Positions 9,100 to 60,428 are shown, counted from the first letter of the stretch. The stretch: 64,000 bases of DNA from a virus (IMGVR_UViG_3300017963_000203:62001-126000), one strand, 5' to 3'. Numbers and translations are program-made. The notes: generated by a model from the sequence alone, not told the origin.

Positions 9100-10982
9100 C
9101 AGATCCCCGCTTTCTCCGGATTCCTTGGCGGTTTCTGCTCAGGCAGCGCAGTGACGGCCTTCTTTGCGTTCTCGATGATCTTTACGCGCTGCTGTATGGC
9201 TCTGGCGAGCGTGGGATTGGTCTCCTGGAGTGTGAGGAGTTCCTGCTGCTTCATGTGGTCCGGTACGTTCTTCATGAAGTGTTCAGCCATGAGCCCGAGG
9301 ACGTTCGGAGCTGGTAGACGGCCTGCTCCGTTGTTCCCGGGAAAGGCTGCACCAGGCGCCGCAGGGTTGGGCTCGGCCTGCGGAGAGCCCCCCTCCTGCA
9401 TGGGCTGCCCCTGGGCCGCGGCCTGCTCGGACGCCGCTGCCTGTGCCTGCGCCTGGGCAGATATCTGCTCCTGCTGAAGCTGGAGCTGTGCGCGGCCAGC
9501 GATGAGCGTCTGCTCGGCCTGGAGCTTCGCTTGCTCCACGCCCTCCTCGTACATGTCCCGGAGACGCTGCTCGCGTTCGGCGCGCTTGTAGTCCTTCTCC
9601 TTGTCGTAGTCGAAGTCGAGCTGCTCGACTGTGGTGCGGTCGGAGATCGTGTTCGTCTGGCGCAGGGAGAGAGCGATTTGCTTCTGCTGCGCGTCATCGG
9701 CCATCTTGAAGTCCTGGTGACGGATGGAGATCTTCGGCAGACGGAGAAATCTCTGAAGCCTGGGGATGAGGAAGGTCTGCTCGAACCGCTCGAGGTCCTC
9801 GATCATGTTCAGGAAGAGGTTCTCGAGGACGCGCAGGGACACGGAAGCGCCCGACCACTGGAGGTTGCCGATCACGAACTCCACCGGAACGTCCAGGCCG
9901 CCGGCGATTTGCTGTCGGACCTGCTCCATGTCGTTGAAGACGTTCAGAGCTTTGGCATCCCCGCGAATGTTCTCGACTGTGGCGGGGAACGGGGCTGTGA
10001 AGATCGCGTTCGGATCTCGCCGCCACGTCCGGACCATGTCCTGCATGTTCGACGCCCACGTCTGAAGGTTGTAGTTCAGGTGGGGCGAAGCACCTGCCGG
10101 CGCAGCCGAAGGGATGAGAACGGTCAGAGGAAGGATGTGCTCGACGCTGATGGCCTCCTGGGCGCGTCGCAGGGTCTGGTAAAGCCACGAATCCTTGAAA
10201 ACGTGCAGGAGCGGAGGGATGGGGAAGTTCTCGTCCTCGGATGAAGGACCGAGCTCCTCGAACACGTAGACCTGATCCTCGTCGAGACCGAAGTTCTGGT
10301 TCTTCTTGATGGCTTCGAGAATCTCGTCGGGCGTCGTCTCGACCAGCACTCGGTTCCGCTTCGGATCTTCAATCTTTTTGGTGAGATATCTCGGGACCCG
10401 GTAGATGTATCGCTTGTAGCCGGTCCAGGGGTTGCTCTGGACCTCCATGTCCATCGGACGCCAGCGGATGATCTTGATCCGGGATCTGTTTCGGACCGTC
10501 ACGCACTCGGATTTGAACTCTCCCTTGTGATGGCACTTTGTGCATTGGGACATCCATCGGTGCCCCTCGTAGGTCCACTTGAGATTCTTGAGCGGATACT
10601 TCTCGTTACAGGCCGGACAAATCAAGAAGCGCTCGAAGGGATAGGCAATGGAAAGGTAGGCCACCCCGTAAACGCTCATGTCGAGCAGAGCCTCGATGGA
10701 CACGCGCTTGATGTTGATGTTGTCCTCGAGGAGCTTCTTCCAGATCTCCTTCGAATTCGAGTTCCCCTCGTAGATCAGCGGCGTCTGAACGTACGCCACC
10801 TTCTTCTTGAGGATGGGCTTAATCTCGGAGTGGGTCATGTACAGGTAGAGACACCACCTGTACAACTCCTTCATCGAGGGCGGAATGAACGCGCTCGACA
10901 GATCGAACGACGGGTGCGGATAGGTCATGACCGATTTACGGCCTGTCCTGGTCCGTTCTTTCAACGTCGCTACATCGCTCAT
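9099..10982 (-). CDS. Portal protein with embedded zinc ribbon
   Basis: 627 residues. Portal proteins form the dodecameric DNA gateway at one capsid vertex. Evidence: an N-terminal YP..SFDLSS then KELYRWC segment; a wing/stem region (RAQEAISVEHILPLTVLIP; LDVPVEFVIGNLQWSGASVSLRVLENLF); clip-like helices (RFEQTFLIPRLQRFL); and a Gln/Ala-rich coiled C-terminus (residues ~480-560), all typical of phage portals. Unusually, residues 122-150 form a Cys4 ribbon (C122, C125, C147, C150). It overlaps both neighbours by 1-4 bp, so translation is coupled. Confidence 0.88.
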   Translation of the reverse strand: MSDVATLKERTRTGRKSVMTYPHPSFDLSSAFIPPSMKELYRWCLYLYMTHSEIKPILKKKVAYVQTPLIYEGNSNSKEIWKKLLEDNINIKRVSIEALLDMSVYGVAYLSIAYPFERFLICPACNEKYPLKNLKWTYEGHRWMSQCTKCHHKGEFKSECVTVRNRSRIKIIRWRPMDMEVQSNPWTGYKRYIYRVPRYLTKKIEDPKRNRVLVETTPDEILEAIKKNQNFGLDEDQVYVFEELGPSSEDENFPIPPLLHVFKDSWLYQTLRRAQEAISVEHILPLTVLIPSAAPAGASPHLNYNLQTWASNMQDMVRTWRRDPNAIFTAPFPATVENIRGDAKALNVFNDMEQVRQQIAGGLDVPVEFVIGNLQWSGASVSLRVLENLFLNMIEDLERFEQTFLIPRLQRFLRLPKISIRHQDFKMADDAQQKQIALSLRQTNTISDRTTVEQLDFDYDKEKDYKRAEREQRLRDMYEEGVEQAKLQAEQTLIAGRAQLQLQQEQISAQAQAQAAASEQAAAQGQPMQEGGSPQAEPNPAAPGAAFPGNNGAGRLPAPNVLGLMAEHFMKNVPDHMKQQELLTLQETNPTLARAIQQRVKIIENAKKAVTALPEQKPPRNPEKAGI

Positions 10983-11596
10983 TTCTTGAATCCGATCGCC
11001 TTGGAGATCCTGGAGAAGGTTGCCGGCCTGATCTTGGGAATCTTACCGAACCTTATCTTAGGAGCCTTCGGCTCCGGCGGCTGCACATTGATGATAACGG
11101 GACCTTTGATCGTTCCGGGCTTTTTCTTCCGCTTCTTCCCGAACAATTCGCTCAGAGAGGCCGCAGCCTCGGCCGCCAGGAAAGCCGCGCCAACTCCGAT
11201 CGACCCCGTGCCCATGCCTCGGCCGAGTCGTGTTTTGGATGCAAAACGATGCGCTTTCGGCCCGAACTTGCCCATCTCAGCCAGCGCATGGGCACCCTCT
11301 CCAGCCAGTGCCGCGTAACCGATCGCCTGCGTCAGCGGGTGGTGGACGATACTCGCGAATGACGCGACTTTCTTCAGGGGGCGCACAGGCTTCGACGGAA
11401 CGGACGGCTTGGGCTGGAACTTCGGAAACCGTCTTTTGAGCATAGTCTCTATTCTTCCCGGGACCTGCTTGTCGAAGATTTCACTCAGACCGTGCTCGTA
11501 CTTGGCCTGAAGCGCGTCGAAACGCTTCTTCAGACGACCTTCCACGGAGGCCGCCTTGAACAGCTCGTCGATGAATCCTGCGATGAACGGGTTCAT
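10979..11596 (-). CDS. Virion-operon protein with GFIDEL tag
   Basis: 205 residues, very basic. It begins with the shared tag (MNPFIAGFIDELFKAAS). Residues ~100-150 are Ala/Gly-rich and hydrophobic (IGYAALAGEGAHALAEMG; GSIGVGAAFLAAEAAAS), perhaps one or two membrane-active helices, followed by KKRKKKP and a proline-rich tail. Basic, tagged proteins like this could be internal head proteins that bind DNA; this is inferred. It overlaps the portal gene by ATGA. Confidence 0.75.
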   Translation of the reverse strand: MNPFIAGFIDELFKAASVEGRLKKRFDALQAKYEHGLSEIFDKQVPGRIETMLKRRFPKFQPKPSVPSKPVRPLKKVASFASIVHHPLTQAIGYAALAGEGAHALAEMGKFGPKAHRFASKTRLGRGMGTGSIGVGAAFLAAEAAASLSELFGKKRKKKPGTIKGPVIINVQPPEPKAPKIRFGKIPKIRPATFSRISKAIGFKK

Positions 11597-11919
11597 GCCG
11601 TGCTCTTGATGAATTTGTGGTATCGACTGATAGCGCCCTTGAGACTCTTCGCATAGTTCAGGGCCCGATGCGTGTGAGTCTCAAACCATGTCTTTCCGTT
11701 GATGACCGCCTTGCTGACAGCCGGAGTCTTCTTCCGCTTCCCGTCCCTTCCGAAATGGAAGTTCCAGACGGCCTTGGACTTCATAACCTTTTTCCGCTCC
11801 TCCGGCGTCAACGGAACGCGGCTCTTCACGAAGGACTTCCAGTCCGGGTGTCCCTTCGGCGCCCCCGGCTTGGCGATCTTCTCGATCTCGTCCAAAAAGC
11901 CGTACATGAACGGATTCAT
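11593..11919 (-). CDS. Small basic virion-operon protein with GFLDEI tag
   Basis: 108 residues starting with the tag (MNPFMYGFLDEIEKIAK). The remainder is basic and helical (LTPEERKKVMKSKAVWNF; ALNYAKSLKGAISRYHKF). It overlaps both neighbours by 1-4 bp. No enzymatic motif. Confidence 0.75.
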   Translation of the reverse strand: MNPFMYGFLDEIEKIAKPGAPKGHPDWKSFVKSRVPLTPEERKKVMKSKAVWNFHFGRDGKRKKTPAVSKAVINGKTWFETHTHRALNYAKSLKGAISRYHKFIKSTA

Positions 11920-12158
11920 TACGCCGGACCTTGTCTCTGCGGAAGAGGCGTTGCCCCTCCGATGGTCTTCTTGGGGTTGAGGGGGTCCTTCATGATCCCC
12001 TCCTTGAGCGTCTTCTCATAGTTGGCCTTATCGAGCCCGGAGGTCTGGCCGATGAACCTCTCGAACGACTCCTTCGGCTGCTTGATGCCGGCAATCGTCT
12101 GTTGCTGGGCATACTTGCTAATCTCGTCCAGAAACCCCCGCATGAAAGCGGCGTTCAT
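11919..12158 (-). CDS. Small virion-operon protein with GFLDEI tag
   Basis: 79 residues beginning with the tag (MNAAFMRGFLDEISKYAQ). The body is helical, with a Pro/Gln-rich end (TPLPQRQGPA). It is the third consecutive tagged gene here; apart from the tag the three proteins look unrelated. Confidence 0.75.
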   Translation of the reverse strand: MNAAFMRGFLDEISKYAQQQTIAGIKQPKESFERFIGQTSGLDKANYEKTLKEGIMKDPLNPKKTIGGATPLPQRQGPA

Positions 12159-12790
12159 GCCGGCACCTCCTCACCCTTGGCCAGGCGTTCTCTGATGTAG
12201 ACCTCGATATCGTGGAGCTTACCCACTTGGACCATGACCGGATCGTGCTGCTGATGCTCCGGAATGGAGAGCTGAGTGAACCGCTCGATGTCCCAAACCT
12301 TGCGCACCTCTTGGGCCAGATCCTTCAACTCCCCGCTGTACGGTGGTTGGGCGAAAGCAAAGGAACGGTGGTAAACCAACAGACCTGCCTGATGACAGCA
12401 GCCTTGGACATAGGCAGCGACTTCCCTGGAAAATGAACGCACGGCAATGGCATTCGCCACAGTCAACCCATACCCGAGTTCCTCCGGAAGACAGACCTGG
12501 ATGTTCTCTACGTCCACATACCGGTCGTTGAACGCAAGGATGATCTTCTCGAAGACCGCGTAGTCGTCCCAGAACTCCCTGGTCATGAAAAATGTGCGGA
12601 GGGCGTTGATCTTGTCCCGGACTTCGTCGCTTACCTCGACCCCGAAGTCGTCCTGAATCTCCAGCCAGAGGGTCTGCGGGTCCCACTCGAGCCACGCCCC
12701 GTCGTACTTCCCGAACAGAATCCGACGGTAGACGTGAGGCGGGATGAACCGCTCACGGAACACGTTTTTCAGAGCCGAGATGTCTGCCAC
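12155..12790 (-). CDS. Head-operon protein, unknown
   Basis: 211 residues, mainly helical with many aromatic residues (VYRRILFGKYDGAWLEWD; FWDDYAVFEKIILAF). It has no tag, signal or catalytic motif. Position between a large virion protein and the tagged genes upstream of portal suggests a head or connector component. Confidence 0.7.
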   Translation of the reverse strand: MADISALKNVFRERFIPPHVYRRILFGKYDGAWLEWDPQTLWLEIQDDFGVEVSDEVRDKINALRTFFMTREFWDDYAVFEKIILAFNDRYVDVENIQVCLPEELGYGLTVANAIAVRSFSREVAAYVQGCCHQAGLLVYHRSFAFAQPPYSGELKDLAQEVRKVWDIERFTQLSIPEHQQHDPVMVQVGKLHDIEVYIRERLAKGEEVPA

Positions 12791-12800
12791 GATTCCTCGT

Positions 12801-13916
12801 CTACGATTCGTGTTTCACCGGAGGCACGTTGGGTGCTCCGGCCAGGTCCCGGTCCACTTCCTTGAGCTTGGCCCCGAGACTGATCCTCGCAGGCACCGCA
12901 GCGGGCTCCATGAGATCCCTCTTCACGTGCCCCACGTTGACCGTGGGAATGCGGTTCATCATGTGGGTGAGGATTCTCTTCTCCACCGTCCCGGCCTCTT
13001 TCAGGGTCTTTTCCGGGTCGTTGACGAACTTGGAGACGAAGAGCGGGTCGAAGATCTTCGCGAGCTCGACGTGCTTGGTGGCGAGCGTCTGGAGCTTCCA
13101 CTTCCGGATGTCTTCTTCCTTGCTCCCGATCTTTTCCATGGCGAGCCCACCGTAGACGGCGAGATACGGATCCCGCAGACCGTCGTCGTACCGGCTCTCG
13201 AGGCCGGCGAGCTTGTCGAAGGTCTCCAGAGCTTCTCGAATGGCCGTGTGTCCCTGGTGAACTACTGGAGCCATGACCTCGAGGAACGTGTCGGCCAGGT
13301 GCGCTGCGGCCCCCTCCTTCACGAGAGCGTGTCGAGCCTTCAACTCCTCGCGGAGGTAGGGGCCGTGCTTTTCCTTCTCGACGTAGTCCCAGATCCGCTC
13401 GTCGAGTCCCACTCCAGTGGCGCAGGCGATCTTGAACAGCTTGTTCGCCCGATCGTATCGCTCTTGTGGTGAAAGACCCGACATGACGTGCAGGAAATCG
13501 TCCTGGGCGCTCTTGGCGAGGAACTCGTGGTCGAGCGGTTGGATCTCTGGAGTCTCCTCGAGAACCACGTGGCCGCTGACTGGGCGTGGGAAAACGCCCG
13601 CCAGCCCGTAGGGCAAGTTCAGGTCGTGACGAAGATGTGCGCGTTTCAGGAAGTAGCCGGCTGCGTTCCGGAGGTTCTCCGGGAGATCGTCGGCCACCGC
13701 GCAGAAGTACCGCCCCGACAGGGCCGTGGCCGTCTTGTTGTAGACGGGCCAGCGACGCACGTCACCGTGGGCCGTGGCGATCTTCACAGCGAAATCCCTG
13801 TCCCGCAGGGACCCTATCTTCTCGAGAGGTACCAGGTCGAGATTCCTGGCCTCGATGTGGGCGATGAAGTCCAGGTCATCGTAAAAATCGAGGACCCTTC
13901 CGGCCACCTTGAACAT
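12801..13916 (-). CDS. Head-operon protein, unknown
   Basis: 371 residues, helical. The N-terminus (FKVAGRVLDFYDDLDFIAH) and the central RYFCAVADDLPENLRNAAGYFLKR pattern are not diagnostic to me. It could be an internal or core protein by position. Spacing to neighbours is 10-11 bp, consistent with one transcript. Confidence 0.7.
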   Translation of the reverse strand: MFKVAGRVLDFYDDLDFIAHIEARNLDLVPLEKIGSLRDRDFAVKIATAHGDVRRWPVYNKTATALSGRYFCAVADDLPENLRNAAGYFLKRAHLRHDLNLPYGLAGVFPRPVSGHVVLEETPEIQPLDHEFLAKSAQDDFLHVMSGLSPQERYDRANKLFKIACATGVGLDERIWDYVEKEKHGPYLREELKARHALVKEGAAAHLADTFLEVMAPVVHQGHTAIREALETFDKLAGLESRYDDGLRDPYLAVYGGLAMEKIGSKEEDIRKWKLQTLATKHVELAKIFDPLFVSKFVNDPEKTLKEAGTVEKRILTHMMNRIPTVNVGHVKRDLMEPAAVPARISLGAKLKEVDRDLAGAPNVPPVKHES

Positions 13917-13927
13917 GGGCTCCCTCC

Positions 13928-14509
13928 TTACATGCTGGCCGCTTCGACGGGCCCCACGCCGACCGACGGAGCACCCGGGGGCGCCTGCGGCGCTGACGAC
14001 GGCGCGCCTCCCATCGGGGATGCGCCTTGCTCGGGGGGCATACCCTGAGGCTGTTGGGCCGCGGCTGCGGCAGCCTCGGGCGGCACACCGCCAGCCTCGG
14101 GAGGAAGACCCCCCGCGGCGGCCGCGGTCGCCGGGTTCGGGGCCATCCCTTGCATGACCGACATCTCCCCCTGGATGCGGGCCATCTCTCGCTGCATCCG
14201 AATCATCTCCATCTTCTGGCGCATGTTGGTGACGATGCGCCGGAGACGGCGGTTCTCCTGGTGCAGCGGGTCGGCCTCCATCTCGTCGATGGGGTCCGGC
14301 GTTTCCAGATCCCTTCGGAGATCCTTCTCCAGCTTCTGGGCGTAGAGGCTGGCGAGCATGGGGAGGTTCGGGGGCGGCGCCTGCATGGTGTGCATGGCGA
14401 TTGCCTGGAGGACGGGGTTACCGCCCCCGTCGCCCCTGAAGCCATAGGCTCGCTTCTCCATCTCTGCCTGACCGTGTTCGGCCAGGATCTTGAGCATGGC
14501 GCTTTCCAT
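13928..14509 (-). CDS. Coiled-coil, Ala/Pro/Gln-rich protein (scaffold-like)
   Basis: 193 residues, first gene of the head operon. Residues ~75-120 form a Met/Gln/Glu/Arg-rich coiled coil (ENRRLRRIVTNMRQKMEM) and the C-terminal ~75 residues are low-complexity Ala/Pro/Gly/Gln. The N-terminus ends in QAEMEKRAY, faintly like the E-x-x-K-x-A end of the shared tag. Coiled-coil plus disordered tail ahead of portal resembles phage scaffolding proteins, but this is only by architecture. Confidence 0.65.
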   Translation of the reverse strand: MESAMLKILAEHGQAEMEKRAYGFRGDGGGNPVLQAIAMHTMQAPPPNLPMLASLYAQKLEKDLRRDLETPDPIDEMEADPLHQENRRLRRIVTNMRQKMEMIRMQREMARIQGEMSVMQGMAPNPATAAAAGGLPPEAGGVPPEAAAAAAQQPQGMPPEQGASPMGGAPSSAPQAPPGAPSVGVGPVEAASM

Positions 14510-41700: not shown

Positions 41701-42708
41701 CCCGAAGCCGATGGAGCCGAAGGGAGGCTCCTGGAGGCTCAGCAGGGTCGCCGTGAGCTGCGGGAAGTACGGAGAGGCCGTCCCCGCCGGCAGAATCCAG
41801 ATCGGCGCGCGCTTGTGGTAGTACCAGACGCCGCCGTTGTTGTCGACGCTAAACTCGTGGCATCCCCGGAAGAACTGCTCGGCCTCGTTGAACGTGAGGC
41901 CCTCCGCGTGGTCCTGCTTCAGCAGATGGGTGTCGTTGTCCGAGACTTCCGCGATGGCCTGCCTCGTGACGCTGTACGTCCCGCCCTGCTTGGACAGAAT
42001 GAGGATCATCTTGATCCCGCAGGTCTGGATGTAAGGCGTGGCCGCACCCAGGAGGTGTGTCGAGTACAGGGCCATGACCATCATGATCGAGTCACCGTCC
42101 GCAAGACCGTCGGCGGTCAATCTCGTGACGTGATAGGTGACCCGCTGACACTCCATGTGCGGAATCTGACAGCGCACCACAGCAGCGTACCGCTCGGTCG
42201 CCGGGTATCCCATGGACCAGGGGGCGAGGTAGCCGCTGTGGCCGCTCGCCTGGACGTCGGACACCCCGGAGTCGCTCTGGACGAACCAGTCCATCTGAGC
42301 AAGCCGAGTCCCGAGTTCGGTCGTGAAATTCTCCGTGTAGTGAACGGGTGGGTGCGGATCGTCTCCTGCACCTCCGCCGCCCCCACCACCCCCACTTCCA
42401 CCACACGTGATGTCAGCGCAGTAGGTGGTCTCGACGAAGGTGAGCCTCGCGACGATGTCAGCAAGGTCGATCTCGATCTGAGCGTGGGTCTTGGTCCCGG
42501 CGTCGGTGAGGTCGTCATGGGAGATTTGCGGGCCCTGTCCGGGCAGCCCGTTGTGAATGTGGCCAGTACCGCCAGGCTGGTTCGATCCCAGACCGGCAAA
42601 CACGGCGTCGAGAGCCCGCCAGTTCGGGTTCGCAAGCGTGTGCCAGGTCCCGGGGGCCTCACCCGCGTAAGGCACGTTCAGGTTCAAATTGGCAGTGACG
42701 TCAGCCAT
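38710..42708 (-). CDS. Large tail-fibre/adhesin protein with IPT/TIG-like domains
   Basis: 1332 residues, last protein gene of the virion operon. The first ~90 residues (NVPYAGEAPGTWHTLANPNW; HDDLTDAGTKTHAQIE) resemble fibre attachment segments; a poly-Gly linker lies at ~103-113; a beta-rich domain covers ~125-370. At least three IPT/TIG-like immunoglobulin repeats begin near residues 669 (VDVTIRGDHFDTGADVWV), 966 (NNIIARITGTGFRAG) and 1154 (VTVNFTILGTDFDSV). Such proteins extend from the tail and bind the host surface. It starts on the stop of the preceding tagged gene. Confidence 0.82.
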   Translation of the reverse strand: MADVTANLNLNVPYAGEAPGTWHTLANPNWRALDAVFAGLGSNQPGGTGHIHNGLPGQGPQISHDDLTDAGTKTHAQIEIDLADIVARLTFVETTYCADITCGGSGGGGGGGGAGDDPHPPVHYTENFTTELGTRLAQMDWFVQSDSGVSDVQASGHSGYLAPWSMGYPATERYAAVVRCQIPHMECQRVTYHVTRLTADGLADGDSIMMVMALYSTHLLGAATPYIQTCGIKMILILSKQGGTYSVTRQAIAEVSDNDTHLLKQDHAEGLTFNEAEQFFRGCHEFSVDNNGGVWYYHKRAPIWILPAGTASPYFPQLTATLLSLQEPPFGSIGFGWAWNVVESATWDVEMAWLTIDSKANVLEEYTTNYPDPGNEPVPFDPPPTDLCCGGIGPQIGAPVDLGDGLKSKAIACVDDPWQGVLLENGMVMPCSVMGFPPSGDTGPTDVDEGSEFIREIPIDNMTPEVNTDWTVNDPDGVLSDYRVEVNLRGVTVSGQTAENSSGGTTPTISVYQATDLANSLVNIPIVSPKQIGPTITGIEIFDRDGVLRTDIGEGLRQRLIISLDNYTDDPPFPKTLGGELAVTGTVSVVERKRLIASNQMQVDIITPNQDPPYGNTLDVVVQDPTGLFSDTANREVKELAPYLRGAFVTNGPPAAAPPPPFAIETTDVVDVTIRGDHFDTGADVWVDAPDSVVPASVAVVDDTTITCQILIGSPLGFPIKAKVINPSGMESNSGVTQPILIVGDLNPFLGTIIETSIDGTPTEPVEGQDVLVRLYNTPLAENVLRFVEADISGTPIPYEDMWGFEWTQDYVEFKVRLPAGLTGVGLHVLQTKNQLDVTQQAEGTTSPILVEPTPAGVVSIGDLSPGATGVLSIAGPGNVFYGQDLEAYIQAGEKMVVTNPVIVPFDGLKLDYEILEDAGPGADTFNLVVKNRLGTTGLIPIGTCTFPSITITALEYVARPLIEGRNNIIARITGTGFRAGITAGIVAGTVTVHDLVFISDTEVQIQLDAPQNTGGDPFTLQLDNPAPDLSSATIGGTVLAEPIPKVNMVVKPPTTGAARIIELVGQNLFVPDSNVPGPITPAFSNFNLDHWDIQSNGFWRGVGDVTGGANDAITLGVDTPGGNSFPSITDFTISAVSVTPVPASFAPTGVEGYVTVNFTILGTDFDSVTVVRAVTSELVPIGSSQTIPMVISSMTSEWIVGTLYLPGGYVGLPFDIQLLDSTLTVLATLSTAFVGEKGAGQPYITNKFDPYPDETTPFAAITHNLQLDPATPVPDLANWSITNGTLISVVDLGAGLVTVQWTNGAAGEIELRVTAPSTVPPMFDVLRRTLV

Positions 42709-43028
42709 TACTCACCCATCTCTTGTAGCTTCTTTCCGAGACTGCTCAGGAGACCCTTACCCCGCTTCTTGATGTACTTCCTGCCTCCCTCGGCCGCGGG
42801 AGATGCAGCGACCTCCCCGCCGCCTGATGAAGCCGCCTCGACGCCTTTCTGAACGAGGTCAGGGTCCTGGAGCGCTTCACGCACCTTCTTCTTGCCCTGT
42901 TCGAGGATGTCGCCCGCAGCGGACTGCGCCGACGGCTTGACGTGCTTTTTCACGGCCTCGCTGAAGACGTCGCCCCAGCCGGCCTGCTTGGAAAGCTCGT
43001 CGAGAAAACCGTGCATGAATGCGTTCAT
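42708..43028 (-). CDS. Small virion-operon protein with GFLDEL tag
   Basis: 106 residues starting with MNAFMHGFLDELSKQAG. The remainder is helical and Lys/Ser/Gly-rich (SSGGGEVAASPAAEGGRKYI) with a basic end. It sits between two fibre genes. No other domain. Confidence 0.75.
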   Translation of the reverse strand: MNAFMHGFLDELSKQAGWGDVFSEAVKKHVKPSAQSAAGDILEQGKKKVREALQDPDLVQKGVEAASSGGGEVAASPAAEGGRKYIKKRGKGLLSSLGKKLQEMGE

Positions 43029-43035
43029 ACCACCC

Positions 43036-44652
43036 TCAGACGTTGATGCGGAACTTCTGCTTCTCTATTTTACCCTGAGATTCGAGATCTTGGATCGTGA
43101 CCTGCTCCTGGCGAGGCACACAGAACCGCCACTGGATGTGGGCCGCTGGAATATGGAGTACAACCACGGCGTCCTGGATCAAATAGGCACCGAAACGTCC
43201 GTACCGGTCGATGTCGCACCACCACTGGTCCCGGGAGAGGATTCGGTCGTGGACGATCTGACCCCGATCGTAGGGCGCCACGAAGAATTTGGCAATGGCT
43301 GCTTCCGGATACTGATCGATCGGAAGCCTCACGCGCCCCTCCACGAAGCACATGGGCGCGTCGATGAAATCCACTTCCTTCACCGTGATGGTCTTGTAGA
43401 GAACCATCGTGTAGTCCGTACCGTCCGGCTGCGGATTCTGGGAGTGCATGGCCCGGTAGATGAGCCACTTGTAGTAGCGCATCTGGTGCGGACTTCCCGG
43501 CTCCGTGTCCACGAACTGGGTGAAGTTAGTGCGGCCGAGGACCTCTTCGTAGGGGATGCCGTACTGGTCGTTGTAGAGTTTCTCCACATCGATCCAGGTG
43601 AGGACCCGGCTGAAAACGATGACCTCGTCGATGAGACCGGCGAAGCACTCCCCCGACCCGTTCCCGCCGATGTAGAAATCCTCGGAGGTGAAGGCCACAT
43701 TGGCTGTCTCGTCGATCTCGACGGAGGCCACCTCCACGCCGTCCAAGTACAGCCGTGCCATGCCGTCTCGATCGAAGGTCCCGACGAGATGGTGCCACTG
43801 CCCGTCGTTCAGGTTCCGCTCGTACTGGACGTACCGGCTGTTCAACGGGCCGTTGATGACCAGGGAGGCGTAGTACTCCGTGCCGATCTTGTCGATGTAA
43901 ATTCCGTAGCCCTGCCCGGTGACCGACGAGATCTTGCCGGCAACGAGCCCTGTGTCGAAGAGCGCGGTAACCGTGACCCACGCGCTGATGGAGAAGTCCT
44001 GGTTTGCTGCGAAGGAAAGCTTCGATGGATTGGTGCTGGAGAGCCAGGAGGCACCGGCGAACCTGGCGCACCCGCCGATGATTCCGCTGGCCGACAGGAG
44101 TTCTACCACGCCCGTAGCTGCGAGATTCGCGTCCGGGGACACATCGTCATCGAAATCCTCGTCGATGGGCCAGAAAGCCGTGGTCCACGTCTCGGGCACG
44201 AACTGAACCTGATCTCTCTCCGTCAGACCATAGCGCTCATCGATACGACGGATCTCGTAGAACAAGGGGTCCACGGTATTCCTGCCACTCTCGACCACCT
44301 CGGGCGGATCCCACTGAAGGAGGACACCGCTGGTGGCGTCCCCGGTGGAGGGCTGAAAGGAAACGCGGGCCGTGCGCTGATTCAGAACGGTGGTCCCGAT
44401 GGTCCCGACGTAGCTCAGGGAGATGACGGTGTCCGGCGTCTTGGCCGGATCACTCACGTCATAGCCGTACCGGACGTAGTAGATGCCTCCGAAAACCGTC
44501 TCCACGCGTTCGAGGTCATCGATGCTGTAGGAGTCGATTTCCAGCCCGAGGGCATTCAGCACTTTGAGGTCAATCGTGTTGACCACCCGGCCCCGTCCTG
44601 AGACAGGGTCGGGGAATGAGATCTTCAGATCGACTGTTCCAGGATCAGGCAT
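43036..44652 (-). CDS. Fibre protein with LamG / concanavalin-like domain
   Basis: 538 residues. Residues ~160-365 match a LamG-type carbohydrate-binding fold: FSISAWVTV, WHHLVGTFDRDGMARLYLDG, FYIGG and LIDEVIVFSRVLTWIDVEKL. The N-terminal ~150 residues are beta-rich with a fibronectin-like feel (VLLQWDPPEVV). Likely binds cell-surface glycans at the tail tip or on a fibre. It overlaps the preceding gene by 8 bp. Confidence 0.82.
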   Translation of the reverse strand: MPDPGTVDLKISFPDPVSGRGRVVNTIDLKVLNALGLEIDSYSIDDLERVETVFGGIYYVRYGYDVSDPAKTPDTVISLSYVGTIGTTVLNQRTARVSFQPSTGDATSGVLLQWDPPEVVESGRNTVDPLFYEIRRIDERYGLTERDQVQFVPETWTTAFWPIDEDFDDDVSPDANLAATGVVELLSASGIIGGCARFAGASWLSSTNPSKLSFAANQDFSISAWVTVTALFDTGLVAGKISSVTGQGYGIYIDKIGTEYYASLVINGPLNSRYVQYERNLNDGQWHHLVGTFDRDGMARLYLDGVEVASVEIDETANVAFTSEDFYIGGNGSGECFAGLIDEVIVFSRVLTWIDVEKLYNDQYGIPYEEVLGRTNFTQFVDTEPGSPHQMRYYKWLIYRAMHSQNPQPDGTDYTMVLYKTITVKEVDFIDAPMCFVEGRVRLPIDQYPEAAIAKFFVAPYDRGQIVHDRILSRDQWWCDIDRYGRFGAYLIQDAVVVLHIPAAHIQWRFCVPRQEQVTIQDLESQGKIEKQKFRINV

Positions 44653-46762: not shown

Positions 46763-47011
46763 CTATTCTTTGTTCCGCTTCAACCTGAACCCGTAGGTAT
46801 AAGGGCCAGCCACAACTCCGGCAAGACGGGCAGGATCTGTGAGAGCCCGCTTCGGACTCGTTGTCTTTCCACGTCCTGCGAGCCTGCGCTCGGCCGAGAC
46901 CGACGTGTCCCTGGTACCGCGCCGAAACTTGGCTCCCTGGTACTTCAGGAAACGGCCCACCGATGCCTGCTTTTCCAGCTCGTCCAGAAATCCGTACATG
47001 AGAGCGTCCAT
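46763..47011 (-). CDS. Small basic virion-operon protein with GFLDEL tag
   Basis: 82 residues. The ATG at 47011 overlaps the upstream stop (TAATG) and begins MDALMYGFLDELEKQAS; the longer open frame upstream is antisense noise from the overlapping fibre gene. Very basic body (FRRGTRDTSVSAERRLAGRG). Confidence 0.75.
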   Translation of the reverse strand: MDALMYGFLDELEKQASVGRFLKYQGAKFRRGTRDTSVSAERRLAGRGKTTSPKRALTDPARLAGVVAGPYTYGFRLKRNKE

Positions 47012-50238: not shown

Positions 50239-50473
50239 TCAGCAACTCCGGGAAGTCCCTCAGCCTGTCGAGAATCTGGGTCCCCACCAAGAGCACCGGC
50301 GGGTCACCCGGTATCTTGAGCGCCGGATACCCCTTTATGAAAGGCTTCTCCACGATCGTCGGTTTACGAATCACCAACGGTATACCCCGCGTAGTGAAAA
50401 AATCAACGATTTGCGGGAGGATGCGCTCGCAGTACGCGCAGGTGTCTATGTAAAAATAGACGCACCACTGCAT
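50177..50473 (-). CDS. Glutaredoxin/thioredoxin-like protein
   Basis: 98 residues. CVYFYIDTCAYCERILPQI carries the redox-active CxxC after the first strand, and GYPALKI supplies the cis-Pro position. Length and order fit a glutaredoxin-like fold. It would reduce or isomerise disulfides; embedded in the tail operon, it might act on Cys-containing virion proteins. The C-terminal ~20 residues lie in the overlap with the next gene. Confidence 0.8.
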   Translation of the reverse strand: MQWCVYFYIDTCAYCERILPQIVDFFTTRGIPLVIRKPTIVEKPFIKGYPALKIPGDPPVLLVGTQILDRLRDFPELLNGSVDNRLTESAAGDGDSSL

Positions 50474-51294
50474 CAGACCCCCCTATTGTGGAGGAAGTCC
50501 CGTGCAACCTGAATGGAGGCCCGGCCATAGTCGGACGTGATCTCCTTGCCGGCACGCACAGGTTTGGTCGTGACCATGAAGAGATCGTCGCCCTCGCGAA
50601 CCAACTTCATGTTCGGTCGACCGGAGTGATTCACCTTCTTGGCGTGGGGTGTCTGCTCATAGTCGTCGTCGGGCCGCCCCGTGCTCGAGACTTGTCGCAT
50701 GCCCAAGCCGATGTTCATCCCTTTGGGAAGCGGGGACGTGGTGAAGAGGCCCTCTCCGTGGATCTTGGAGGGTCGGACTCGAAGAGCCCCGGTCTTCTTG
50801 AGCATCTTCATCTTGGCAGATCCGGAACGGATAGCAGCCTTCCGCCTCTCAAGGCTTTTCTCTTTGAACTTGGCCTTGATTTGCTCTTTGGCCCGTCGCT
50901 GACGCGCAATCTGTTTTCGGGCCCTGTTTGCCCACTTAGGCGCGTCAACTGCCTGCCTGGCCAAAAGCGTGCCCATACCAGCATCCGGGAGGACGAGACT
51001 GGCCGGGAGCGCAGCAAGACCCGCCACGCGTGCAGCCTTGGAGGGCTTGGCCGTCCGCATCCGCATGATCATTCGCTGAATGGGCTTGTCCTTCACCTCG
51101 CGGAGCTTCTTCGCCACACGTTTCCTGGCAGACGGCATGTCTCGCCAGCCCCGAACAGGGATCGTTTTGAATGGCTGGTGCTCATGACGACCCTTCTGTA
51201 TGGCGAGCTCCTCAGAGAGGTCGTCCTGGGCCTTCTTGGAGAGCTGGACGTCCAGCTCGTCCAAGAGGCCGGTCATGAAGGCTTGATGGTTCAC
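50473..51294 (-). CDS. SET-domain protein with virion tag
   Basis: 273 residues. It begins with the tag (MNHQAFMTGLLDELDVQL). A basic linker (residues ~50-165) precedes a SET lysine-methyltransferase-like domain at ~169-258: IHGEGLFTTSPLPKG, VNHSGRPNMKL (N222, H223, S224; P227, N228) and RAGKEITSDYG (D255, Y256), equivalent to GxGxF, NHSCxPN and GEELxxDY. SET enzymes use S-adenosylmethionine to methylate lysines. The substrate could be a virion or host protein. The Cys of NHSC is Gly here, so the usual post-SET zinc link is absent. Confidence 0.83.
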   Translation of the reverse strand: MNHQAFMTGLLDELDVQLSKKAQDDLSEELAIQKGRHEHQPFKTIPVRGWRDMPSARKRVAKKLREVKDKPIQRMIMRMRTAKPSKAARVAGLAALPASLVLPDAGMGTLLARQAVDAPKWANRARKQIARQRRAKEQIKAKFKEKSLERRKAAIRSGSAKMKMLKKTGALRVRPSKIHGEGLFTTSPLPKGMNIGLGMRQVSSTGRPDDDYEQTPHAKKVNHSGRPNMKLVREGDDLFMVTTKPVRAGKEITSDYGRASIQVARDFLHNRGV

Positions 51295-51773: not shown

Positions 51774-52568
51774 TCAGGGCAACGAAACGTACTCCTTCAA
51801 AGTCTCACGATCAACCTTGAGAATGACCAGATCGCCTGCGCGCCTGGAGACCTCGATCGTCATGACCTTCTCTCCGTCGTACACGTCGATCACCCTGGCC
51901 GGCTCCGAGTCGTCGCCCACACAGATCGGTTCTCTGATCGATTCGATCCTGTTCTCGAGATCCTTCACCTTCCCGCCGAGCTCGTGAAGCATCCGGCGAA
52001 AACTCTTGGGAGGGTCAAGAGGGCGCCCTTCCTCGGCCGCCACGAACTGCTCGACGAGTTCGGCCATGTCCTGGCTCCCATTGGCCACGGACTGGACGAG
52101 GACATCGTTGAAGGTCTTGGTGTCCACGTAGATCTTCATCGAATCCCGGTCGGTGCGAAGGATGAACGCCATCCGAGACCCCATCGTCTCGAAACCCACG
52201 ACCTTCATCGGATTGTCGAGGTCCCCAACCTCCTCGGGAATCTCCGCGCTCCGGATACGGCGCTTCATCACCTTGGACATGAGTCGCTCGACTTCCAGAT
52301 CGCCCCGGGCCACCGACTTGAAGAGATCGAGGAGACCTTCGTCCAGGATGATGGCGTCCTTCGCCAGCATGATGGGCTGTTTGGTCTCTGGGCACATCGC
52401 CCAATGCGTGTAGGTTCCGTCCACGGTCTCGATGGGGTCCCCCTTAAGCAAGGTGAATTCCAGATCATGCTCGCCGCCGCATCGTGCGCATCGCCTGATC
52501 GAAATCGTCCTCGCCCGCCTCTTGGCTTCGTCCTGGGCGCGCTTCTCCTGTTCGTTCGGATCTACCAT
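51774..52568 (-). CDS. Hypothetical protein with N-terminal zinc ribbon
   Basis: 264 residues. RRCARCGGEHDLEF and a later MCPETKQPIML form a Cys pair site. The middle is helical (LLDLFKSVARGDLEVERLM), with a coiled coil near residues 200-225 (ELGGKVKDLENRIESI). It could be a regulator or assembly factor. Confidence 0.66.
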   Translation of the reverse strand: MVDPNEQEKRAQDEAKRRARTISIRRCARCGGEHDLEFTLLKGDPIETVDGTYTHWAMCPETKQPIMLAKDAIILDEGLLDLFKSVARGDLEVERLMSKVMKRRIRSAEIPEEVGDLDNPMKVVGFETMGSRMAFILRTDRDSMKIYVDTKTFNDVLVQSVANGSQDMAELVEQFVAAEEGRPLDPPKSFRRMLHELGGKVKDLENRIESIREPICVGDDSEPARVIDVYDGEKVMTIEVSRRAGDLVILKVDRETLKEYVSLP

Positions 52569-52578
52569 TCGACGTCTC

Positions 52579-52758
52579 CTAATTGGGGCTCATTTCCGTA
52601 TTTCTACCTGCCAGATACTCCTCCACCTTTTTGGAGAGGCATGTGGCGCAGTAGTGTACGCCCCCCCACACAACGTCCCTGAGCGTAGGAGCGCCGCAGT
52701 CTGGACACCGGCCCTCGGTGGGGAGATCAGATCTTCTCGCAGAATCGGAACGAGACAT
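52579..52758 (-). CDS. Small zinc-ribbon protein
   Basis: 59 residues from an ATG at 52758 inside the 3' end of the preceding fibre gene (32-bp overlap). CPDCG and YCATC, 17 residues apart, define a Cys4 ribbon. It is short but has the same Cys architecture as the plus-strand zinc-ribbon proteins. Confidence 0.62.
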   Translation of the reverse strand: MSRSDSARRSDLPTEGRCPDCGAPTLRDVVWGGVHYCATCLSKKVEEYLAGRNTEMSPN

Positions 52759-53989
52759 ACGGAGGAAGAACCACAGCGTTCACTGGAGTGAACGTATGTT
52801 TGTGGGCGTCGGGCCAGTAAAGCGCCAAGCCTCCCGGGAGGACCTCGTTCTGCTCCGTGCTTCTCTTGAAGTCCTCGACTTCCTTCGCGTTCAACGGATT
52901 GAACGACCACGTCACACCGTGGCCTCCGAACCAAGCGAGGGACTTCTTCCGAATGGACCAGTCACCCAGCGCTACGTCTCCCGGGCCTGGTGGGATTCCC
53001 TGATCGTTGAAATCCGGAGATTGAATGCGGCGTTGCACGTCGGGTTCGTCGCTGAGGAACTCTTCTACGGGCTCACCTACCATGCCGTCACGCTGGTGGA
53101 TGAAGTGCTCGTCGTCCCCCAGGGTCTGCCGCAATTCCGGCTTCTTGTTGGCGAGGACGCCCTCGCTGATGGTCGGGTATTCTTCGGTCCCTCCGCTCAG
53201 TACGTTGGGATCGCCGAACGTCTGATAGAGCATGTGCTCGTCAGCCTCAGGTACCGAACGGAAACCAGCGGGAATTTCGTCGCCTTCCCACAGAATAACG
53301 GCCCCTCGAGGGAGCGCCACGTCTCCTGGATTTTCGGAGTAGGGGAGACTCAGGTCGAATCGACCGAGAGCAAAGGACAGTCCGGCCACACCCATGGAGT
53401 ATCCGCGACGCCCCCTCACCTTCAGGCGCACAACGATCTTCTCCATGTCCAGAGGACATTCCTCGATGGCGTGCATCACACGGCGGTACGACCCGATCTG
53501 ACTCGCGAAGAACGGGAAGCTCTCGTCGGTCTTGGACCCGAAATCGTACTCGGGCCACACCTTGACCTCGCCCTCGATCTTCGTGGCCGAGAAAGCGAAC
53601 GTAGCGGGCATGCCACGGAACTGATTGATGACGTCGATCTCCTGCTCGAGCGTGACCGTTGCGTCCTTGTAGAACGTGATACGCAGGAGATGGCCGCTGT
53701 CGTAAGACCGCCTACGAACACCGGTGACGATGTCGATAGGGTCGAAGTCCACTGCTCCAGCCTCTTCCGAATCGGCCGAGATGGACCAGTTGCCAACTGC
53801 GTACTTCTGCGCAGAAGTGCCCACAAGTATGGATACGTCCGCAGGAGTGAGCACATCGGCGATGGTTATACGTGGTGTGACCGACGGGTAGCTCTTCGCA
53901 GACGCCTCCCTCGCAATCCTGGCGAAGTTCCCATTCTTCAACCAGTTGTTCGAGTGATTCCTGCCGGCTGCTGAGAGGATGTCGGTCAT
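52727..53989 (-). CDS. Collar-type tail fibre, paralogue 3
   Basis: 420 residues. The N-terminal NNWLKNGNFARIAR is shared in style with the two upstream fibre genes. Residues ~225-260 carry a tail-collar-like motif (LPRGAVILWEGDEIPAGFRSV), followed by a His-rich region (DDEHFIHQRDG; DAHKHTF) and an aromatic end (YVSFRFCEKI). Tail-collar proteins form trimeric fibre tips with metal-binding His. Confidence 0.75.
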   Translation of the reverse strand: MTDILSAAGRNHSNNWLKNGNFARIAREASAKSYPSVTPRITIADVLTPADVSILVGTSAQKYAVGNWSISADSEEAGAVDFDPIDIVTGVRRRSYDSGHLLRITFYKDATVTLEQEIDVINQFRGMPATFAFSATKIEGEVKVWPEYDFGSKTDESFPFFASQIGSYRRVMHAIEECPLDMEKIVVRLKVRGRRGYSMGVAGLSFALGRFDLSLPYSENPGDVALPRGAVILWEGDEIPAGFRSVPEADEHMLYQTFGDPNVLSGGTEEYPTISEGVLANKKPELRQTLGDDEHFIHQRDGMVGEPVEEFLSDEPDVQRRIQSPDFNDQGIPPGPGDVALGDWSIRKKSLAWFGGHGVTWSFNPLNAKEVEDFKRSTEQNEVLPGGLALYWPDAHKHTFTPVNAVVLPPYVSFRFCEKI

Positions 53990-56571: not shown

Positions 56572-57578
56572 ACTCGTTTGCAGAAAAGAAAGGCCCGGTA
56601 GATGGGCTCCGTATTGTTCGACCCCTGGTCCCCACTCAGTTCGTGCGTGTGATCCCGTGCCGGGTCTGCCTTAGACCCCGCATCCTCGTCCATTCCCGTC
56701 ACCACACGTGCCTCGTCACTGCCCAGAAGAGAGCGTCGAGGCCACCCTGACGGCGGGTACATCTTCTGGTTCAACTCGTGTGTGTGATGCAGCGCGCCAC
56801 CGCTCTCACCCGGAACACCCTCTCGAGGGAAGACATCATCCTGAGAAACGGGAGCAAACCCAGGAGGGGCGACGGTCCCCATGCACATGACGATTGCTCC
56901 TCGGGGGAAGACGGCTGCGGCGGGGTCTCCGGTGTAGGGGAGATCATTGTACGCTCCTGTCGCCAGCATCATGTTGCCAATGTGAACCTCGACCGCCTGA
57001 GAGCGCCCCTTGCGCTGGAACTGGGCTGCCACGATACCGAGGCGCACGTTGGCCGCCTCGAACGTACCCGTGAACCGACGCCACGTGCCGCTCGAAAAGG
57101 ACGGATCGAGCTCCTCGTACTCGTCGGCCGGATCACTCACATTATAGTTCCGAGTGAATCCGACGCTGACAGCCCCCTGCACCACACGCAACGAAAAGGA
57201 CACCGTGATGGGGCCCTGATAGACGAGGTTTCCTTCGGTGGCGTAGTAGCCGTAGGTGGACATCTCGCCGGCGTCGACAGGAACTGCGTGGTCAAGGACG
57301 GCGCCGAAGGCCAGCGTAAGGTCCTGTCCAACGGTCACCGGATCACTCTTGGGCAAGATGAACTTGAGGTAGTTGAACGGAGCACCAGCCACGTCCGGGA
57401 CCTCGCCAAACACCTGCTCCCAGGTATTGACAGCTCCCGGCGCGATCGCTTTCCTGATCGCCCCGCCCACCGAATAAAACGGCGGGGTGGCTCCTTCAGG
57501 ATCCTGAAAGTCCAACCCGCCGTTCTTGAACAGATTCGGGACGCTCAGGACATCTCCATAGTGCCTGCTGATGCCCAT
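56568..57578 (-). CDS. Collar-type tail fibre, paralogue 1
   Basis: 336 residues. SVPNLFKNGGLDFQDP near the N-terminus; collar-like VFPRGAIVMCMGTVAPPGF at ~220; His-rich tip (ALHHTHELNQKM; ARDHTHELSGDQGSNN) and a CKRV end. The HTHEL repeats are typical of His-lined metal channels in fibre tips. Confidence 0.78.
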   Translation of the reverse strand: MGISRHYGDVLSVPNLFKNGGLDFQDPEGATPPFYSVGGAIRKAIAPGAVNTWEQVFGEVPDVAGAPFNYLKFILPKSDPVTVGQDLTLAFGAVLDHAVPVDAGEMSTYGYYATEGNLVYQGPITVSFSLRVVQGAVSVGFTRNYNVSDPADEYEELDPSFSSGTWRRFTGTFEAANVRLGIVAAQFQRKGRSQAVEVHIGNMMLATGAYNDLPYTGDPAAAVFPRGAIVMCMGTVAPPGFAPVSQDDVFPREGVPGESGGALHHTHELNQKMYPPSGWPRRSLLGSDEARVVTGMDEDAGSKADPARDHTHELSGDQGSNNTEPIYRAFLFCKRV

Positions 57579-57587
57579 TCCGTCTCC

Positions 57588-58613
57588 TTACCGACCCCCG
57601 AAGGGCCCCCACCCCTCTCGCATTTTCTTGCCGACTCTGGCTCCGAGAGCTCCGCCGAGGGCTCCGCCCAGGCCTCCTTGCGCAGCACGACGCAGTCGCT
57701 TGCCCTTCTTGGCCGTGAGAAGACCACCGAGAGCGCCTCCGATGGATCCCCCGGCCGCGGAAGCCGTCTCGTCACTGGTCTTCTCGACACGCCTGGCGGC
57801 ACCCTTCAGCCCAGCCTTCAGCCCTCGTTTGGCCTTGCGCCCCATCCTCGCGAGACGACTCGCCAGAGCGGCCCTCGGCCCTGTCTTGGCACCGCTGACC
57901 GACTGTTCCTTCGGAGGCTCGGTCTTGAGGGCCTCACGGCTCCGCTCCCGCCATCTCTTGCCGCCGGCGATGAAGTCGGAGCGGCTTTCCCCGGGAAAGT
58001 CGCTCTTCTTGGGCGACCTTCCGGCGAGCCGACCCACCTCGTGCGCCATGATGCGATGACCGGCGTATTCGCCGGCTTTTCCCTTCACAGGATGCTTGTC
58101 GGCATTGCCCAGGCGAAGGGCGGAAGGCAGCTTGGCTTCCTTCTCCATGGAGGTGTCGAATCCGTTGAAGAACGCCTCTTCGGCCTGCTTGCCGAAGCCA
58201 CGACCCTTCTGCGCCTTGAAGCGCGGGTCCTGCGTTCCGGAACCCTTGGGTCCGGTGTCCTTGGGATTGGCCTTGGTCGAGGGATCTCGGCGAGCGGCCT
58301 CGATCTTGGCGAGAATGCCCGCGCCGCGGCCGCCGCCTCCGGGGCCTCCGGGTACGCCCATCGGGCCACGACCCCTGCCCCTGGCCAGTCCTCGGCCCTT
58401 CCCCTTGCTGCGAATCTTCTCGCCCGGGGTCGCGCACGCCATGTCGTCGGCCTCGGCCTTCTTGGGCATGCCCATCGGGCCTTTGCCCTTGCCCCGGGCC
58501 AAGCCCTTGCCTTTGCCCTTGCTGCGAATCTTCTCGCCCGGGGTCGCGCACGCTCCCGCCTTTTCCAGTTCGTCCAGCAGCCCGTGATAGAATGCTTGGG
58601 TCATCGAGTCCAT
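57588..58613 (-). CDS. Possible internal-start product of the 946-residue ORF
   Basis: An in-frame ATG at 58613 (Met606) is preceded by AGGAGGAGAC, as strong a ribosome-binding site as any in the window. It would give a 341-residue protein beginning MDSMTQAFYHGLLDELEKAG, i.e. with the tag at its N-terminus like the six stand-alone tagged genes. Nested in-frame products are known for phage assembly proteins. Translation from here is inferred. Confidence 0.5.
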   Translation of the reverse strand: MDSMTQAFYHGLLDELEKAGACATPGEKIRSKGKGKGLARGKGKGPMGMPKKAEADDMACATPGEKIRSKGKGRGLARGRGRGPMGVPGGPGGGGRGAGILAKIEAARRDPSTKANPKDTGPKGSGTQDPRFKAQKGRGFGKQAEEAFFNGFDTSMEKEAKLPSALRLGNADKHPVKGKAGEYAGHRIMAHEVGRLAGRSPKKSDFPGESRSDFIAGGKRWRERSREALKTEPPKEQSVSGAKTGPRAALASRLARMGRKAKRGLKAGLKGAARRVEKTSDETASAAGGSIGGALGGLLTAKKGKRLRRAAQGGLGGALGGALGARVGKKMREGWGPFGGR

Positions 58614-60428
58614 GTCTCCTCCTGATTCTTTGGCCGCCTTCGGGAACTGCGGCAGATTCTTCTTCATGGCCTGCGGATCAGCCACCGAAGGCGGCTTCAC
58701 CTTACCTTTAGGATACGCCCTACGCAACTTCGAGAGCGTGGGCGGCCCAGCCTGGGCCGCAGTCTTCTTGATGTTCTTCTTCGGTTTGGGGCCGAGTCGG
58801 TTGGCGATCGCCGTTGCCCCGAGAGTACCGCCGATGAGACCCACAGGCATGCCGATGATGAAGGCCGAGTCGGGATTGCTCTTGGCCCAGTTCATGAGTC
58901 CCTTGCCGGCGCGCCTGGGCATCGTACGGAGACGATCGATCCATTCCCTCTTGTTGAGAAGCGCCTGACCCTTCCGAAGCGCCTTCTGAGACGATGCCGC
59001 CGATCGAAGATCCTTGGACGAGCCACCAAACCTCGCCGCAGCCACATTCGCCCAATGCTTCCGGTTCATGCGGTCGAGCTGGCTCTGAGGCGGACCGAAG
59101 ATCTTCCGACCGAGGCGCCGCTTGATGCCAACCCATTTTGCCGACTTCTCGATCTCGTCCACCAGGCCGTGAATGAACGACGCCTTCTTCTTGAGCCTCG
59201 AAAGAGACGGCACGACCGTCCCACGCCGAGTCTCAGACTGCTCCTTGCTGATGAAGGGTTTCATGTGCTTCATTGTCCCGTGTCGCCGTTTTTCCGACTG
59301 CGCCGTCTGGAGAATGTTTCTCAGGCCGCTCAGGCCCTCCGTCTTCTGCCTCTCCCTCGTCTCCATGATCCGCCTGGCCGGACTCGGATCTTTGAAATGA
59401 TGGACCGGCATCTTCAGCCCACGTAAGCCGTGACGGACCTGGCTGGTGCCGCGACGCCCGCCAAAAACCGTGTGGGGCGGGATGTCCAGCTTGCCGGCCG
59501 ACTCGAGCTTCCTCTTGATCGCCTTCTTGGGATCCTCGAAGTCGAAGCTCTTCTCGCTGTACGCAGCGCGGTAGATCCTTTTACGATCCGCGGGCTTGAG
59601 CTTAGACCACATCTTCTCCCACTTGACGGCAGCACCCTTCTCGAGTTTATCAGCCGCCTCACGTTCGCCTTTCTCCTGGGACGACGCTTCGTTCTTCACC
59701 AGACGCTTGAGGAGTTGGCGAAACTCGCCGGAATGGACCTGTTCCTCTTCAGCCACGTCCCGCATGAGCGGGGCCACCACATCATCGCGAGTGTAGTCCG
59801 CGATCTGGTTGTAGAGCGACGTGGCCTCCTCTTCAGCGGACAGGGCGAGACGCACGGCACTGACGATTTCTTCATGGGTGAGGGGATCTCCCGGCTTCTT
59901 GCCCGGGAACGGCCGAGTGAAGTCCACGCCGATCTTTTCGAGTTCGGAAAACAGGCCGTAGAAGAATGCCGCCCTCTTCTCGAGTTTCTTCTCCATCTTG
60001 AGGAGCGCCGGGTAGTATCCCGTGCCGAGTTCCTTGACATGGTCAGCCACGATTTTCTTGGCAACAGTCGGGCTGGGCGTGTGCTCCTTCTCGACCTTCA
60101 CGCCCGTCCGCATCTGCGCAGGAGACATGGGTGGAACCTTGCCGCCCGATTTCCCTTTGCTAACGATGTCGGACAGTACGCGGTAGACCGTGGCCTCGGC
60201 CTTGTGGACGTTGAAGCCGTTCTCCTCGGCCCACTCGTGGAACTGGTCGTCGCTGGGACGTGGATGCTTCTGGAGAAACTTGATGACCTGCTGCTCAGAC
60301 GGAGCGGCCCCCTTGGCTTTCTCCTCATCCTCGTCGGCCTTCTTACCCATGCCCTTGGGACCGAAACGAGCACGCTCCTGGAACGACAGGACACGACGCT
60401 TCAGACGACGTGCTTCTTCTCTGTTCAT
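57588..60428 (-). CDS. Polyprotein-like virion protein with ferritin-like domain and four internal tags
   Basis: 946 residues, very basic overall. The shared virion tag occurs internally at ~155-168 (FFYGLFSELEKIGV), 418-431 (FIHGLVDEIEKSAK), 613-626 (FYHGLLDELEKAGA) and, degenerate, 753-766 (FFNGFDTSMEKEAK), dividing the chain into about five modules. Module 2 carries a ferritin-like two-helix domain (~182-243): EIVSAVRLALSAEEEATSLY and VAEEEQVHSGEF (E199-E201; E229, H232 as ExxH). Module 4 contains a Gly/Lys-rich duplication (CATPGEKIRSKGKGKGLARG and again). The last ~40 residues are Gly/Ala/Lys-rich, possibly membrane-active. A strong ribbon site lies before Met606. It may be cleaved during assembly. 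Confidence 0.8.
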   Translation of the reverse strand: MNREEARRLKRRVLSFQERARFGPKGMGKKADEDEEKAKGAAPSEQQVIKFLQKHPRPSDDQFHEWAEENGFNVHKAEATVYRVLSDIVSKGKSGGKVPPMSPAQMRTGVKVEKEHTPSPTVAKKIVADHVKELGTGYYPALLKMEKKLEKRAAFFYGLFSELEKIGVDFTRPFPGKKPGDPLTHEEIVSAVRLALSAEEEATSLYNQIADYTRDDVVAPLMRDVAEEEQVHSGEFRQLLKRLVKNEASSQEKGEREAADKLEKGAAVKWEKMWSKLKPADRKRIYRAAYSEKSFDFEDPKKAIKRKLESAGKLDIPPHTVFGGRRGTSQVRHGLRGLKMPVHHFKDPSPARRIMETRERQKTEGLSGLRNILQTAQSEKRRHGTMKHMKPFISKEQSETRRGTVVPSLSRLKKKASFIHGLVDEIEKSAKWVGIKRRLGRKIFGPPQSQLDRMNRKHWANVAAARFGGSSKDLRSAASSQKALRKGQALLNKREWIDRLRTMPRRAGKGLMNWAKSNPDSAFIIGMPVGLIGGTLGATAIANRLGPKPKKNIKKTAAQAGPPTLSKLRRAYPKGKVKPPSVADPQAMKKNLPQFPKAAKESGGDMDSMTQAFYHGLLDELEKAGACATPGEKIRSKGKGKGLARGKGKGPMGMPKKAEADDMACATPGEKIRSKGKGRGLARGRGRGPMGVPGGPGGGGRGAGILAKIEAARRDPSTKANPKDTGPKGSGTQDPRFKAQKGRGFGKQAEEAFFNGFDTSMEKEAKLPSALRLGNADKHPVKGKAGEYAGHRIMAHEVGRLAGRSPKKSDFPGESRSDFIAGGKRWRERSREALKTEPPKEQSVSGAKTGPRAALASRLARMGRKAKRGLKAGLKGAARRVEKTSDETASAAGGSIGGALGGLLTAKKGKRLRRAAQGGLGGALGGALGARVGKKMREGWGPFGGR
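58413..58553 (-). repeat. In-gene direct repeat
   Basis: Two copies of a ~90-bp unit, offset by 114 bp, encode CATPGEKIRSKGKG followed by a Gly/Arg/Lys stretch and GPMG. The start of each copy is nearly identical at DNA level. Confidence 0.75.

Follow-up and report, generated by a model that had tools for sequence, protein, structure and literature searches.

Why should proteins of a tailed phage that appear to have nothing else in common carry the same short peptide? The question is raised by a window of 64,000 nucleotides (positions 62001-126000 of G000, the 130,894-bp IMG/VR virus record IMGVR_UViG_3300017963_000203), in which an earlier note, made from the sequence alone, had picked out six minus-strand proteins with a common N-terminal motif and had counted ten copies. 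All six are there, with qualifications for those starting at 47011 and 51294, and four more copies, internal to a 946-aa open reading frame (ORF; 57588-60428), complete the ten. The peptide, here called the tag, is made up of an F-x-x-G-[FL]-x-D-E half and a terminal stretch of five residues, phi-x-K-x-[AG], phi standing for L, F, I or M. From the sequence evidence set out below, we consider it probable that the tag is a two-part propeptide, with a targeting half and a maturation-protease site. That phi-x-K-x-A would be the cleavage site of the phage's own head-maturation protease is the part in which we have most confidence; that the tag is a removable head-targeting propeptide is a proposal we favour on balance.

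A short peptide on late proteins

The six ORFs of the window, called like all others here by a simple longest-ORF rule, lie on the minus strand, and their motif starts at residues 4-6. They are 10979-11596 (205 aa, basic, with hydrophobic stretches; tag FIAGFIDELFKAA at 11549-11587, and LKKVA as a further site at residue 74), 11593-11919 (108 aa; tag FMYGFLDEIEKIA at 11872-11910), 11919-12158 (79 aa; tag FMRGFLDEISKYA at 12108-12146), 42708-43028 (106 aa; tag FMHGFLDELSKQA at 42981-43019), 46763-47011 (82 aa, basic; tag LMYGFLDELEKQA at 46964-47002, with Leu as its first residue) and 50473-51294 (273 aa, starting with GTG). The motif of the last reads FMTGLLDELDVQLSKKA, and K-x-A stands some residues further on; the tag FMTGLLDELDVQ and then the site LSKKA occupy 51229-51279, and the C-terminal part holds a SET domain (Pfam SET, E=4.9e-7). 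This tagged, late protein of the lysine methyltransferase type is possibly internal or ejected. No PHROGs or Pfam family is common to the bodies of the tagged proteins.

The earlier note also called for a profile search. Applied to the full record, a position-weight scan finds extra tags outside the window (G000 coordinates 31994, 32326, 33318, 33468, 42030, 51256 and 51613) and weaker copies at G000 46135 and 37430; all the convincing copies are on the minus strand and in late genes, and the plus-strand ORFs of G000 have none. In the late proteins of G000 the strict tag pattern is observed 12 times and a loose one 17 times, against 0.0 expected for each; expected counts, here and below, come from shuffled proteins, which keep composition and lose secondary structure. 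In G000, 14 of 23 cases have an F..G element exactly eight residues ahead of phi; other phages also have a shorter F..G-phi-x-K-x-A form with an offset of four, for example MFSTGFKKIA. On inspection by eye we rejected a signal peptide or a membrane anchor, there being no long hydrophobic stretch in the tag.

Internal copies, which the note had missed, sit at module boundaries of fused proteins, usually after a second K-x-A. The 946-aa ORF, also on the minus strand, is a putative polyprotein with ten phi-x-K-x-A sites, a DUF5661 domain (residues 105-148) and a rubrerythrin-like domain (193-264). The F codons of its tags are at 59966, 59177, 58592 and 58172: FFYGLFSELEKIG (59928-59966) stands directly behind DUF5661 and has LEKRA ahead of it, FIHGLVDEIEKSA (59139-59177) has LKKKA ahead, FYHGLLDELEKAG lies at 58554-58592, and FFNGFDTSMEKEA (58134-58172) follows FGKQA. 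In G000, K-x-[AG] comes just before six of the ten internal tag-like matches, and the order DUF5661, K-x-[AG], tag is found both in G000 and in contig G001. A 146-aa protein of contig G005 consists of an N-terminal MPFKSKAQ module, VKRA, the tag and a domain; this domain is 53% identical to the body of the G000 protein 11593-11919, whose tag is N-terminal. These double sites around internal tags fit precursors that would be cut on both sides. Domains adjoining tags include HNH, SET, rubrerythrin-like and DUF5661, on the last of which a search of the open-licence literature found nothing; NlpC/P60-like, ligase-like and glycine-zipper features near the tag are by-eye judgements.

The phi-x-K-x-A motif in head genes

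The end of the tag occurs on its own as well. In the 52 late proteins of G000, phi-x-K-x-A is observed 85 times against 19.9 expected, and 80 times against 19.1 once the tags are masked; since the excess persists, the tag is one of the forms in which a commoner signal appears. What the earlier note overlooked is that the tag elaborates, at the level of lineages, a signal that is far more widespread. The motif is concentrated in late and above all in head genes: the head block carries the strongest excess (49 against 7.7, tags masked), other late blocks smaller ones, and the plus-strand genes none (5 against 4). In the late proteins the excess is gone when K is changed to R or E, when the order is reversed and when the spacing is shifted, with the exception of [LFIM]K.A, which is weakly raised; the K-to-R, reversed-order and spacing controls address the secondary structure that the shuffles do not keep. 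Among individual proteins, an untagged late one of 371 aa (12801-13916, minus strand) has six sites and the portal protein (phrog_64; 9099-10982, minus strand) has none. The portal also has two CxxC pairs (CPAC...CTKC), zinc-ribbon-like, at residues ~120-155, where Pfam gives only a sub-threshold cytochrome-like match.

The motif was picked after inspecting G000, and the independent tests are 85 related phage loci, loci from bacterial genome assemblies and a blind search with the tag pattern. In 80 of the 85 loci, almost all selected by homology to the G000 protease, phi.K.A tops the ranking of 400 phi.X.Y motifs by over-representation; many of these IMG/VR loci are near-duplicates, so that their number exceeds that of independent lineages. 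Pooled over the 85, it is found 2632 times against 587.5 expected (z 84, with z 14 for the runner-up motif), and it ranks first in five of seven loci from bacterial assemblies. The method recovers known sites as positive controls, [LI]-x-E in T4 head proteins (46 against 22.6) and S-x-E in phiKZ (47 against 32); phi.K.A is at 5 against 2.8 in the former, which is not significant, and at 8 against 7.4 in the latter, no excess.

In Salmonella phage Arash, whose virion proteome has been measured (PMC10585845), the head block has 32 sites against 6.1 and the early region 25 against 26.1. Within the early region, gp97 has the most sites (five) and is found in virions (1060 spectra), as is gp100 (471 spectra), which begins MEKQAS. 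Far from the head block, gp242 (L163 11466-12335) has eight sites in 289 aa and is also present in virions (550 spectra).

The protease, the capsid protein and the reach of the tag

The protease ORF, G000:46284-47819, lies between the terminase (51943-53907) and the major capsid protein (42838-44028). It matches the head-maturation protease family phrog_18299 (E=2e-4; 2e-6 for the Arash and 2.6e-19 for the phage G homologue) and is not recognised in Pfam and NCBIfam searches; its homologues are Arash gp222 and gp19 of Bacillus phage G, and Vibrio phage D69 has one as well. In an alignment of six proteases, K40/A42 and K260/A262 are invariant and stand at both edges of a conserved core, in which H131 and S191 are also invariant; these brackets are kept even in phage G, which is about 30% identical. 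The N-side site is present in 63 of 73 proteases and the C-side site in 68 of 73, where chance would give about 8% and 5%. Some apparent misses retain K-x-A without the hydrophobic residue, and loci L016 and L017 count as misses because inteins upset the counting anchor; judged by sequence, L016 has three in-frame inteins in its protease gene (2730-7598) and L017 has one (4978-7590). Arash gp222 and gp223 (L018 19863-22102), which the annotation lists simply as structural proteins, are probably the head-maturation protease and its scaffold or core protein, respectively; gp223 has eight phi-x-K-x-A sites in 255 aa. Protease relatives in Desulfovibrio piger and Bilophila assemblies (L151, L152, L155) hint at Desulfovibrionaceae hosts for the clade.

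The capsid protein carries the motif at a fixed position: in 65 of 77 sequences the K of K-x-[AG] lies 12-13 residues ahead of a conserved K/R-x-R-E region of the N-arm, and the flanks are variable. A model of the G000-type capsid protein has the HK97 fold (predicted template-modelling score 0.75; best PDB match E 3e-8). Arash gp222/gp226, D69 and phage G gp19 share the protease family, the K-x-A brackets and the phi-x-K-x-A excess, and the capsid proteins of Arash and D69 likewise have a K-x-A site ahead of the N-arm; they differ from G000 in that the FxxG[FL]xDE tag was not found in the regions examined, and phage G differs further by a weaker excess (16 against 6.0) and a capsid protein without such a site.

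More distant proteases lack both brackets in Mycobacteriophage I3, Stormageddon and MTATph1, and these phages have no phi.K.A excess. Nor has Erwinia Y3, in which the C-side bracket is absent and the N side has K-x-A-like letters (VSKTA, LPKAA), nor Rctr197k, whose protease was not read. A mild rise of phi-x-R-x-A (z ~3-4, not controlled) in I3 (L101), Rctr197k (L157) and Stormageddon (L158) possibly reflects a shifted protease specificity.

Searching IMG/VR by the tag pattern alone returned 23 stretches, several of which were judged chance or unrelated matches (short or shadow frames, or not near a start). Besides a near relative of G000, eight contigs have convincing tags, and the protease is encoded in six of them (E 1e-57 to 1e-83). 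The remaining two, of 17.8 and 61 kb, have one tagged protein in common, and the 61-kb contig shows the phi.K.A excess in its tag region.

Propeptide, docking motif or cargo peptide

The T4 capsid-targeting sequence (CTS), processed by gp21, is the nearest comparison. There, too, several unrelated proteins share a short peptide, mostly at the N-terminus, that ends in a maturation-protease site, here a predicted one, and multi-site late proteins are encoded beside protease and capsid genes. The differences are that the site is [LI]-x-E in T4 and phi-x-K-x-A here (phi.E.A is at expectation in G000), that the tag also occurs internally, and that the protease shows no significant similarity to gp21; because of the differing specificity and this lack of similarity we do not claim membership of the T4 family. 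With the prohead proteases of phiKZ and SPN3US, which cut at S-x-E and A-x-E (PMC5694885, PMC10052503), our sites share the P3-x-P1 form, a preference for Ser at P1', several cuts per propeptide and self-cleavage of the protease, the cuts here being predicted; they differ in Ala instead of Glu at P1, Lys at P3 and a hydrophobic P5. Across 2061 unique sites Pro is at 0.03x at P2 and Ser at 3.2x at P1'. It is this shunning of Pro, the favouring of Ser and the P3-x-P1 analogy that lead us to place the predicted bond after Ala. The cuts reported for the T4, phiKZ and SPN3US proteases fall after Glu, so a Lys-P3/Ala-P1 specificity would, if true, be a clear departure; we found no earlier K-x-A head-protease motif in the open-licence literature, and one may have been described elsewhere.

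In the mechanism we propose, the first eight residues, F-x-x-G-[FL]-x-D-E, would most likely bring unrelated proteins into the assembling head, and the phage's own prohead protease would cut phi-x-K-x-[AG], probably after Ala or Gly, removing the tag after assembly. The predicted site has L, M, F or I at P5, often E at P4, K at P3, A at P1 and S, E or A at P1'. An internal tag would be the joint at which the protease splits a fused precursor into two modules, and we infer that the tagged proteins are internal or ejected.

Several observations weigh against this reading. Cleavage in this group is predicted from sequence, and the proposed targeting role of the FxxG half from likeness to the T4 CTS. 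The coverage values of Arash Table 2 cannot show processing; several rows give 100% coverage with two unique peptides, and we therefore used the table neither for nor against cleavage. An AlphaFold2 model of the protease from six close sequences reached a predicted local distance difference test score of only 33 and was discarded, leaving the fold unconfirmed; a profile comparison with T4 gp21 (hhalign) was not significant, and no solved structure matches the protease by sequence. Up to ten sites in some proteins are too many if all were cut in a protein retained in the virion, four of the ten internal tag-like matches of G000 have no K-x-A upstream, and the 17.8- and 61-kb contigs show no protease.

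The alternative that survives best, though we hold it unlikely, is that phi-x-K-x-A, and the tag with it, is a docking motif for scaffold, capsid or protease that is kept uncut in the virion. Several proteins have the many copies expected of multivalent docking, and a binding site could account for the constant position of the motif in the capsid protein. A docking motif would not, however, readily explain why both edges of the protease core are bracketed even in phage G, why internal tags are mostly flanked by sites at both ends, or why the exclusion of Pro at P2, the preference for Ser at P1' and the P3-x-P1 form resemble protease sites such as those of SPN3US and its relatives (PMC10052503). 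It is quite improbable that the common N-termini are leftovers of recent duplication or recombination without shared function. In G001, where about ten proteins are tagged and their genes form two clusters of neighbours, the tags are indeed near-identical (MN.FE.GFFDEL.KIA); distant contigs, however, show the same pattern on unrelated bodies with K-x-A at a fixed offset, the DNA of the tags differs among the G000 copies, internal copies sit at module joints, and the tag co-occurs with the protease.

Still less probable is an encapsulin-type cargo peptide, bound to the inner face of the capsid and kept there, even though one short peptide is shared by unrelated proteins, some of them enzymatic (SET, rubrerythrin-like), and the capsid protein has the HK97 fold. 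In encapsulins the peptide is retained, there is no maturation protease and the shell has no DNA-packaging machinery; the tag ends in a protease-type site and also occurs internally, in a tailed phage with portal, terminase and maturation protease. Of the two analogies that the earlier note had drawn, that with T4 targeting and maturation holds up in its logic, given the predicted site at the end of the tag and the co-occurrence of tag and protease in unrelated contigs, and that with encapsulins is not supported. It is hardly tenable that the phi-x-K-x-A excess simply reflects how amphipathic helices are composed, although the helix formers L, E, K and A are common in these proteins; the motif controls, the gap between the pooled z and that of the runner-up, and the early Arash genes at expectation already contradict it.

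Returning to the propeptide, we can also picture, tentatively and as something slightly short of probable, a broad clade of large tailed phages, for the most part uncultivated and with Arash, D69 and, distantly, phage G among its members, whose head-maturation protease would have a specificity not described before, phi-[E]-K-x-A|[SEA]. Several lineages of this clade would use an FxxG[FL]xDE-K-x-A tag to stock the head with proteins for delivery into the host, both enzymes and membrane-active ones (SET, HNH, ligase-like, rubrerythrin-like), some of them as tag-punctuated polyproteins cut inside the prohead. If the proposed reading is true, a motif of five residues would make it possible to read from sequence which head proteins are cleaved throughout a phage clade, many late proteins now called hypothetical would be explained as protease substrates, and the tag might serve as a short peptide for loading foreign cargo into the heads of large phages.

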